Source: Thioalkalivibrio thiocyanodenitrificans ARhD 1 (GTDB lineage Bacteria > Pseudomonadota > Gammaproteobacteria > Ectothiorhodospirales > Ectothiorhodospiraceae). Taken from it: DNA of 64,000 nt. The notes under the pieces are model-generated. The model did not search any database. It worked only from the letters and a program-made list of their open reading frames with translations, and was not told the DNA's origin. The first letter of the stretch is position 1. The number at the start of each line of letters is the position of its first letter. The stretch is from assembly GCF_000378965.1 (NCBI RefSeq), contig NZ_KB900536.1, positions 507,583-571,582 on the forward strand, given 5' to 3'. A program made the position numbers and the translations under genes. Positions 10,622-12,142 of this stretch are shown piece by piece.

Positions 10622-10999
10622 TCAGATCGCGGCCCCGTGCTCGATCGCCTTCCTCCATTCCTCCACAAACTCCCGGATGGTCTCCACGAAATCCGGATCC
10701 TGCTCTGCCCGGTTGATGGTGGCATGAATCACCACCGCATCCGGGGCGGGCGGATACCCGGTGGTCAGGGTCCAGGTGAGGGCATTGGCGCAGTCGGGCA
10801 GCATGAAACGCACACCCCCGTTGATTCGATGGCGGAGAATGTCGAACTCGCCCCACACGGTCCACGCGCGGGCGCGGTCGTCGTCATGCACGGCCAGCAG
10901 GCGTTCAATGGACGGACAAAGGTCCGCGAGCCGGCCTGCTGTAATCCGCTGAAGGCTCTCGGCGGAGGCGGGGACCCGGGCAATGGCGAAGAACTCCAT
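10622..10999 (-). CDS. conserved hypothetical protein, 125 residues
   Basis: No family was recognised. The protein has no signal peptide and no membrane segment and looks like a small soluble alpha/beta protein: MEFFAIARVPASAESL at the start, an aromatic centre (WTVWGEFDILRHR), and an amphipathic C-terminal helix ending EEWRKAIEHGAAI. The start pattern and short length resemble small ferredoxin-fold proteins, but this is a weak impression. It is convergent with the YdjM-like gene and lies downstream of the 260-bp inverted-repeat element. Confidence 0.55.
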   Translation of the reverse strand: MEFFAIARVPASAESLQRITAGRLADLCPSIERLLAVHDDDRARAWTVWGEFDILRHRINGGVRFMLPDCANALTWTLTTGYPPAPDAVVIHATINRAEQDPDFVETIREFVEEWRKAIEHGAAI

Positions 11000-11060
11000 G
11001 GGCTGTACTCACTGGTTGGTGTGCGAACGCGGCGGACGTCGGGTGGGGGCGCGACACTAG

Positions 11061-11320
11061 TGTCGCGTCCCACAAATAACTTGCCATTCAGAGCCCCGCA
11101 AAAGCGCCAAGGCAAGGCGCACACCGCAGGCAATGGCAGGCCCTTGGCAAGGTGTGCAACGCCGCATTGGCGCTTTTGCGGGGCTCCCTTCGGGCGCGGC
11201 TGTGCGGGCGTGTGGCGGTGTTACGCTTGCTTGAAAGGGGGTGGCCCTTCCTGCGCAAGCGTGCCTTGCCACACGCCCGCACAGTCGCGCTGAATGGCAA
11301 GTTATTTGTGGGACACGACA
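11061..11320. mobile_element. 260-bp miniature inverted-repeat element (MITE-like) bracketed by CTAG
   Basis: Terminal inverted repeats of 31 bases (11061-11091 and 11290-11320) match with one mismatch and begin TGTCGCGTCCCACAAAT on the left. CTAG occurs immediately outside both ends (11057-11060 and 11321-11324), consistent with a TA or CTAG target duplication. Inside are two further long hairpins: 11092-11110 pairs perfectly with 11167-11185, and 11194-11216 pairs with 11268-11290 with one mismatch, so the single strand could fold as a three-way junction. No coding frame is convincing. An IS630-type transposase acting in trans is a plausible mover but no such gene is in the window. Confidence 0.8.
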
Positions 11321-12142
11321 CTAGCCCGAATTCACCTGATAGAGATGCACGTCACGCTGAGGATAGGGGATATTGATGCCGTTTCGGTCGAAGGCGGCCT
11401 TGATACCCTCGAGCAGGTCCGCGCGTACTGCCCAGAAGTCACCGCTGCTGACCCACGGGCGCACTGCGATGTTGACGCTGCTGTCGGCCAGGTCGGCCAG
11501 CACCACGGCGGGCGCAGGGTCTTTCAGGATGCGTTCGTCCGCCTCCACGATCTCCAGGATCAGATCCCGGGCGCGGGCCAGATCGTCGCCGTAACCGATG
11601 CCGAACACCAGGTCCACCCGCCGGGTGTCGCGGGCGGTGACGTTGACGATGATGCCGTCGCTGATCTTCCCGTTGGGCACGGTGATCTCACGATTGTCCG
11701 GCGTGCGCAGCACCGTCTGGAAGATACGGATCTGCTCCACCACGCCGGCGGTGCCGGCCGCCTCGATGAAGTCTCCCACCTTGAAGGGCTTGAACAGGAT
11801 GATCATGACCCCGGAGGCCAGATTTCCCAAGGAGCCCTGCAGGGCAAGGCCGATGGCCAGGCCGGCGGCACCGAGCACGGCGATCAGGGACGTGGTATGC
11901 ACCCCCAGTTGATCGAGGGCCGCGATCACCACCACCAGACTCAGCAGGGCGCGCAGGATCGAGGCGAGAAAGCGGGTGAGCATGGGATCCATGCCGGTGC
12001 GCTGCATCAACCTGTCGGAGATGCGTACGACGAGTTTGACCACCCACAAGCCGATGAGCAGGATCCCGATGGCCAGGCCGATGTTGATGGCCCAGGGGAT
12101 GAGATAGTCGTTGAGGATGACGGCCGAACTCACGGGTTCCAT
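11321..12142 (-). CDS. mscS: small-conductance mechanosensitive channel, MscS family
   Basis: A 273-residue inner-membrane channel of the basic MscS length. Three hydrophobic segments span about residues 15-40, 55-85 and 88-115. The pore-lining TM3 with its glycine/alanine pattern reads LGAAGLAIGLALQGSLGNLASG, immediately followed by FKPFKVGDFIEAAG, the hallmark of the beta domain. It opens under hypo-osmotic tension. The start at 12142 has GGAG six bases upstream and is preferred over 12172. The TAG stop lies in the CTAG that borders the 260-bp miniature element. Divergent from mtnA. Confidence 0.92.
   Translation of the reverse strand: MEPVSSAVILNDYLIPWAINIGLAIGILLIGLWVVKLVVRISDRLMQRTGMDPMLTRFLASILRALLSLVVVIAALDQLGVHTTSLIAVLGAAGLAIGLALQGSLGNLASGVMIILFKPFKVGDFIEAAGTAGVVEQIRIFQTVLRTPDNREITVPNGKISDGIIVNVTARDTRRVDLVFGIGYGDDLARARDLILEIVEADERILKDPAPAVVLADLADSSVNIAVRPWVSSGDFWAVRADLLEGIKAAFDRNGINIPYPQRDVHLYQVNSG

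Follow-up and report, generated by a model that had tools for sequence, protein, structure and literature searches.

Going by what is known of the two families, gene-less elements bounded by IS630 or IS5 ends are expected to be mobilised in trans by the corresponding transposases, and the Correia elements are linked to IS630. Among the described systems closest to the one reported here are RUP and the Correia/NEMIS elements, listed for Streptococcus pneumoniae and Neisseria, which resemble it in being small, in having TA at their ends and in duplicating their target; RUP has been proposed, on indirect evidence, to be moved by IS630-Spn1 (PMC2229807). They differ from it in that their stem-loop is formed from the two ends and has no arms, and the passages on them in that source describe no inverted, loop-conserved pair of inner hairpins (PMC2229807). 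MITEPsy1, an IS5-type element of Pseudomonas syringae, shares with the IS5-ended elements discussed below a 4-nt CTAG or YTAA duplication and IS5-like ends, but it is 100 nt long and is set apart by its description, which in the portion of the source used here includes no conserved inner structure (PMC3189936). The CIR repeats of Caulobacter and Brucella have two hairpin arms and a linker, but carry GANTC at a loop, and no outer stem pairing their ends is described in the part of the source that covers them (PMC2229807). REP sequences and BIMEs, which are associated with RAYTs, are also small and non-coding and often form inverted hairpin pairs, but according to the sections drawn on here they are 20-40 bp long with a GTAG or CGTC tag (PMC3733652), whereas the present element has 266 bp, long terminal inverted repeats (TIRs) and a TA duplication. 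Membership in the REP/RAYT group was considered and rejected, since the size of 266 bp, the long TIRs and the 15 of 104 element-bearing genomes without Y1_Tnp speak against it. No description of the element was found in the open-access literature searched, including the relevant parts of PMC3733652, PMC2718517, PMC10969869, PMC2229807, PMC5896051, PMC3189936 and PMC4853749.

The locus studied here lies in a 64,000-nt stretch of DNA, referred to below as the window. Judged by its sequence, the folded stretch of 260 bases within it is one copy of a widespread non-coding mobile element of Proteobacteria, of the MITE type: it is short, has no transposase gene, has TIRs and occurs in several copies. 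MITEs are a known kind of element, and what is unusual here is the transferable, structure-selected pair of inverted hairpins.

Fold and boundaries of the element

The fold of positions 11058-11323 of the window comprises an outer stem, two lobes and a mini-hairpin (CCC/GGG), and is far more stable than expected by chance. The fold energy was -202.6 kcal/mol, compared with -119.9 +/- 5.0 kcal/mol for shuffled sequences (z = -16.7), and 0 of 200 shuffles matched it. An inverted-repeat search placed the arms of the outer stem at 11057-11094 and 11287-11324 (38 nt, 95% complementary); those of the lobes lie at 11091-11113 and 11164-11186 and at 11194-11216 and 11268-11290 (23 nt and 96% complementary in each case). 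The lobes reach beyond these arms, each being a hairpin of 102-103 nt with conserved internal loops. The original prediction was of a 260-bp element at 11057-11324 that folds as a three-way junction. Its inverted repeats are real and correctly placed, and the fold energy agrees with it, but the junction is nearer to a four-way one, because a three-pair mini-hairpin, CCC TTC GGG, also sits in it, and the element proper runs from TA to TA over 266 bp. We set this boundary, TA...TA inside CTAG...CTAG, because the element-free sites of related copies show such limits. The parts of the element are as follows.

11058-11323, no strand assigned: whole element, TA to TA, in the context CTAG (11057-11060) and CTAG (11321-11324)
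11058-11059, no strand assigned: left copy of the duplicated TA, by analogy with the empty-site pair L066/L117 and with the copies in genome G157
11060-11086, plus strand: left TIR, 5' arm of the outer stem, of a sequence that varies widely among element types
11087-11188, plus strand: lobe 1 hairpin, with conserved CAAGGCGC .. CGCAGGCAATGGC .. CCCTTGGCAAG .. GCAACGCCG
11186-11194, no strand assigned: dyad mini-hairpin CCC TTC GGG between the lobes, with CCCNNNGGG present in 22 of the 22 rows of alignment A1
11192-11294, minus strand: lobe 2, an inverted, diverged copy of lobe 1, matched by model R1 on the opposite strand
11295-11321, minus strand: right TIR, 3' arm of the outer stem, from the inverted-repeat search
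11322-11323, no strand assigned: right copy of the duplicated TA, which with the adjoining C makes up the TAG stop of the mscS-like gene on the minus strand

The neighbouring gene on the minus strand (11321-12142) encodes MscS domains (PF00924 and PF21082). Its TAG stop (11321-11323) is read from the right edge of the element, and the protein ends in ...HLYQVNSG; the orthologue in genome G001 ends in ...QVSAPG with a TGA stop, and there was no element in the 301 nt read there. Open stretches across insertion sites proved uninformative as a test of gene context in such G+C-rich genomes. Rfam returned four matches to the window element, all far under the gathering score, and no sigma-70-like site was found in 10900-11500. 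Directly to the left of the element, GGGGCGCGACACTAG (11046-11060) resembles the element's right end (87% over 15 nt) and is perhaps the remnant of the end of another copy, sharing CTAG.

Copies and distribution

The sequence had been supposed to be a repeat, and it is indeed not single-copy: the window's own genome contains a second full copy that is 98% identical (L048, G000:C1:999145-999416) together with several end fragments, and relatives occur in other bacterial families. Counting this genome, 13 of 58 related genomes match the element at least in part. The L048 copy sits inside a RAYT-like (Y1 transposase) gene, directly after ...VMPDHLHWLMR. The one-contig genome G157, which belongs to another family, has 22 copies with identical ends. 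Sixteen of the 20 copies that were read are 263 bp long, with 0-1 differences from the commonest sequence, and the other four are 262 bp long; the set is best read as a recent burst.

The lobe model R1, described below, matches 104 of 369 genomes sampled from the class and, in an overlapping sample of the phylum that includes other classes, 72 of 398. The exact core pattern was found in at least 119 stretches in named genomes, and among the 80 matches listed are Stutzerimonas, Gilvimarinus, Microbulbifer, Parahaliea, Sedimenticola, Thiodiazotropha, Salinisphaera and a Zetaproteobacteria MAG. A contig labelled as a Bifidobacterium breve MAG (L239) also carries the core and is probably mis-binned. 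At 104 of 369 class genomes the module is widespread enough to be relevant to annotation and to the question of how elements of this kind are maintained. Carriage by viruses or plasmids was considered and rejected, as there were no matches to the core pattern in viral contigs and none to the window element in plasmids or phages. Other TIR types do occur on plasmids, and three of the seven plasmid loci that were fetched by their ends carry lobes (P. aeruginosa PA83, Azotobacter chroococcum and Halomonas sp.).

Target site duplication

Nineteen pairs of filled and empty sites were compared, and one of them (L066/L117) gave an exact empty site. L117 consists of the joined flanks of L066 with TA present once, GAAGACTAGCTTC, against CTAG...CTAG in the filled site; there is one substitution further out. 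The empty sites L118 and L119 hold one CTAG, the right flank of L119 having diverged, and L122 and L125 have CGAG and CTGG, respectively, as their single set of four bases. The remaining 14 pairs were diverged, contained element remnants or did not align cleanly. In G157, TA is present on both sides of 17 of 20 copies. No clean empty site was found for the window copy, which is flanked by CTAG on both sides, so that a 2-bp duplication of TA and a 4-bp duplication of CTAG are indistinguishable there; the G157 type has TA only.

Several sites depart from this arrangement. L052, L059, L069, L073 and L074 have ACAG, CCAG or TCAG instead of CTAG at one end and CTAG at the other, and the L074 site without the element has CTAG. 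L123 (G003:C5:75583-75858), which is orthologous to the L057 site, has CTAG followed by an element-like end fragment, and is a decayed copy rather than an empty site. Among the G157 copies L329, L332 and L343, two have the same left flank and different right flanks, and the third has similar sequence beside its non-TA end; recombination between these copies is likely. In L327, L334 and L335 of the same genome, copies of one TIR type directly adjoin sequence resembling ends of a different type (TAACCCGGCAAC..), and elements in G157 seem to nest at each other's TA ends.

Terminal inverted repeats and transposase families

The sequences of the outer stems vary widely (CTAGTGTCCTG.., TACTAAGACAAACG.., CTATTAACCCGGCAAC.., TTAAGGAAGCACTGATC.., CTAGGGTCTGTTGACG..), and some intermediates have their inner halves in common. 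Elements from Janthinobacterium and from two Streptomyces plasmids, which belong to the IS630 family by annotation only, match the B-type end, CTAGTGTCCTGAGTCAGAGATTCG, at both of their ends (E = 1e-3 to 0.5, the query being short). For the GGAAACACTGAT end, the match is a 1.2-kb element of Marinobacter that encodes an IS5-family protein (NF033581, 333 bits). At one end of this element 22 of 24 nt agree with L263; at the other, which is imperfectly repeated, only the outer 13 nt or so match. The Marinobacter element is flanked by TTAG on both sides, and the lobe-bearing elements of the GGAAACACTGAT type have CTAA (L278) or TTAA (L260, L250) on both sides; their lobes score 99.8 bits in L278 and 95.2 bits in L250. 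The GGAAACACTGAT type has an IS5-family TIR together with a 4-bp YTAR duplication. One and the same inner module thus lies between ends belonging to two unrelated transposase families, whose target duplications differ.

The original prediction also raised the possibility that the lobes are needed for single-strand-type mobilisation. The lobe stems do carry a signature of the single-strand type (see below), but such mobilisation is unlikely for the ends, because the TA and YTAR duplications and the ends matching IS630 and IS5 point to double-strand DDE transposition in trans. We infer that the TIRs would be cut and joined in trans by a DDE transposase targeting TA or YTAR, which would be of the IS630 family for the CTAGTGTCCTGAGTC ends and of the IS5 family for the GGAAACACTGAT ends. 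The window's own, related CTAGTGTCGTG type would probably use an IS630-like transposase.

An autonomous partner in the same genome was sought and rejected, there being no CTAGTGTMSTG end pair about 1 kb apart in seven genomes. No longer element with G157 ends was found by 25-mer (four genomes) or by 14-mer of the G157 ends, and 24-nt TIR probes in those of the loci L207-L306 with a recognised TIR pair gave one weak extra end, in L263. In plasmids, neither the A-type TIR of the window nor the G157 TIR had a partner; a search with the GTACTCTTTCAAGG-type end gave just four short matches, and one with a region of the end of the L298 element gave 140 scattered records. The IS630 domain DDE_3 was absent from seven of seven element-bearing genomes and from 12 of 16 others (present in four of the 16). 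G157 has a five-copy IS630, besides two other IS630 matches, and the ends of this IS630 are unrelated to those of the element.

Covariation and inverted homology of the lobes

Alignment A1 consists of 22 full-length elements that were hand-picked for diversity, near-duplicates, copies with inserts and truncated copies being left out. RNAalifold predicted 102 pairs on it, of which 80 were changed on both sides; these double changes include 28 of 32 pairs in the main helix of the outer stem, 20 of 22 in that of lobe 1 and 18 of 21 in that of lobe 2. Paired cells amounted to 95.7%, versus 70.7% in shuffled alignments and 33-43% in slid versions. The covariation score was 0.630 versus 0.165 for shuffled alignments, and 0 of 500 shuffles were as good, so that the inner hairpins are conserved among copies, as the original prediction required. 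Template switching in long inverted repeats can maintain complementarity, which makes covariation alone weaker as evidence.

The covariance model R1 was built from lobe 1 only, using 24 elements. It matches lobe 1 of the window (L047:438-539) at 116.5 bits, this copy belonging to the training set, and lobe 2 of the window on the opposite strand at 79.7 bits (E 5.9e-17). In 22 of 22 element loci R1 finds lobe 2 on the opposite strand (E 8e-19 to 2e-7, 40-87 bits), and the two lobes are therefore one hairpin present in two inverted copies. R1 also matches the antisense strand of lobe 1, at 17-43 bits, since the lobe is in part a palindrome; most lobe-2 scores clearly exceed this range, though the weakest, L068 at 40.2 bits, does not. 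On this profile evidence the element is an inverted dimer of one hairpin around CCCNNNGGG. The homology claim rests on the R1 profile test and not on pairwise alignment of the two lobes, which is significant in some types only (z 7-9 in L078, L080, L081 and L086); in the window copy the pairwise score of 40 does not go past the shuffled maximum of 44 (z 2.3).

A larger set of lobes was aligned to R1, comprising the best 150 of the 169 matches found in 100 selected loci. These were 97.0% paired versus 64.3%, in an alignment that is fitted to the model. Mean identity was 0.78 for the lobe-1 core, 0.66 for the lobe-2 core and 0.41 for the TIR, and the loop residues CAAGGCG, AATGG, CAAG and AAC rank among the most conserved positions.

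Strand bias of mismatches in the lobe stems

Selection on a stem in its folded, single-stranded form should leave more G.T than A.C mismatches, and the reverse should hold on the complementary strand. In the model-aligned lobes (n = 150) there were 301 G.T and 42 A.C. Because the covariance model favours G.U, the stems were re-paired with an aligner that gives every mismatch the same score. The initial re-paired count, taken 25 nt deep, had no bias (214 to 207; 30 versus 36 by cluster), because at this depth it takes in the internal loop and, with it, an invariant A facing C that is part of that loop. A shorter stem depth was chosen after this result had been seen, and in the basal 18 bp of all lobes G.T outnumbered A.C by 191 to 31. 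The corresponding counts were 76 to 26 at a depth of 14, 121 to 30 at 16, 194 to 31 at 19 and 197 to 31 at 20. When the lobes were grouped into 87 clusters (82% identity), 56 had more G.T and five had more A.C (p = 6e-12).

In 53 two-lobed elements, counted over 18 bp, the ratio was 64 to 8 in the better-scoring lobe and 72 to 11 in its inverted partner. The bias is thus present in both lobes, each in its own sense, so that physically it falls on opposite strands. For 48 of these 53 elements the outer stems gave 22 to 26, which is no bias, in a test oriented by the better-scoring lobe, where mixed orientation could mask a bias. Positions 15-16, next to the internal loop, account for much of the G.T excess, and the count at positions 6-13 is just 29 to 11, so that the excess may reflect a recognised feature rather than a general tolerance. 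The lobes appear to be selected as folded single strands, either RNA or ssDNA; G.T is the most stable mismatch in DNA too, so the bias does not separate the two.

Possible roles of the hairpin module

A hairpin that is selected for its structure, and is found enclosed by the ends of two or more unrelated transposon types, probably has a function. Since the lobes occur together with ends for transposases that are unrelated, a site specific to one transposase is an unlikely role for them, and it is more likely that they serve the element or the host as a folded single strand. We consider it quite probable that the element is a MITE with TIRs moved in trans and a conserved inverted hairpin module that is kept as a folded single strand. 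The interior is a conserved module made of two inverted copies of one bulged hairpin, each of them, on this view, kept by selection in its own sense. Because the copies are inverted, any exposed or transcribed strand would carry one lobe in the working sense, and the module would work in either orientation. RNA, we infer, is the likelier form, because a read-through transcript from either flank would first meet the lobe that is in sense for it; ssDNA at the replication fork is the main alternative. A possible role, which we put forward tentatively, is that the sense lobe in read-through RNA binds a host factor and limits damage to the neighbouring mRNA. It is also quite possible, if short of probable, that the lobe represents a structured module, RNA or ssDNA, of a kind so far undescribed, which occurs through much of Gammaproteobacteria and beyond and has been captured by unrelated DDE transposons, duplicated in inverted orientation so as to function on reading of either strand, and carried as a transposase-independent passenger that makes miniature transposons tolerable or persistent.

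The ssDNA alternative holds that hairpins formed at the replication fork aid the moving or copying of the element, and that, because the pair is inverted, the lagging-strand template always has one lobe in sense. The strand-specific wobble bias in both lobes fits it. Y1 (RAYT) transposases read bulged ssDNA hairpins and are found more often in genomes that have the element (89 of 104, versus 152 of 265; odds ratio 4.4, p 1e-7), an association that may reflect just the load of mobile elements. However, 15 of the 104 element genomes have no Y1_Tnp match, including the one-contig genome G396, the TA and YTAR target duplications fit double-strand DDE insertion, and the module is common to elements with ends of two unrelated transposase families, and on balance this alternative seems rather unlikely. 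Mobilisation by RAYT/HUH enzymes as such, an idea that arose from the MPDHLHWL motif beside the second copy and from the resemblance of the lobe bulges to those of E. coli REPs, was dropped in view of the TA duplications and the same 15 genomes.

In our judgement it is quite unlikely that this is an ordinary MITE in which the lobes are no more than passive inverted repeats, the fold is unselected and covariation arises from palindrome correction (template switching between arms) and descent. In L065 (G003) lobe 1 has been inverted in place between its arms, and therefore the arms do recombine; moreover, strong folding is common in MITEs, according to the sections on them in PMC2229807 and PMC10969869. 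This explanation is already weakened by the loop residues, which are highly conserved across elements whose ends share little sequence, and by the excess of G.T over A.C in each lobe's own sense, where strand-symmetric correction predicts none. The proposal that the fold terminates the transcription of genes reading into it, mscS among them, or directs the processing of their 3' ends appears very improbable. A stable stem does adjoin the mscS-like stop codon, and a processing signal without a T-run is compatible with the sequence, but a terminator of the intrinsic type, as originally suggested, finds no support, terminator-like sites (stem plus T-run) being absent from 10900-11500, and the lobes end in CCC.

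The interiors of MITEs are usually seen as filler and their ends as the conserved part, and in the present case this is reversed. The ends change from IS630-type to IS5-type, while the inner hairpin keeps its loops, its pairing and its strand-specific wobble pattern. The element would thus provide a testable case of a functional, transferable nucleic-acid module inside miniature transposons.

Variant elements

Relatives with one lobe exist (L278, L263 and L215 at 5273), and therefore the lobe pair is not essential. A REP-like insert of about 70 nt with several small hairpins is present in L060, L063 and L097 (G002) and in L156 and L162 (G004). It occupies the same lobe-1 site (..GC / AACGCC..) in A-type and B-type elements.
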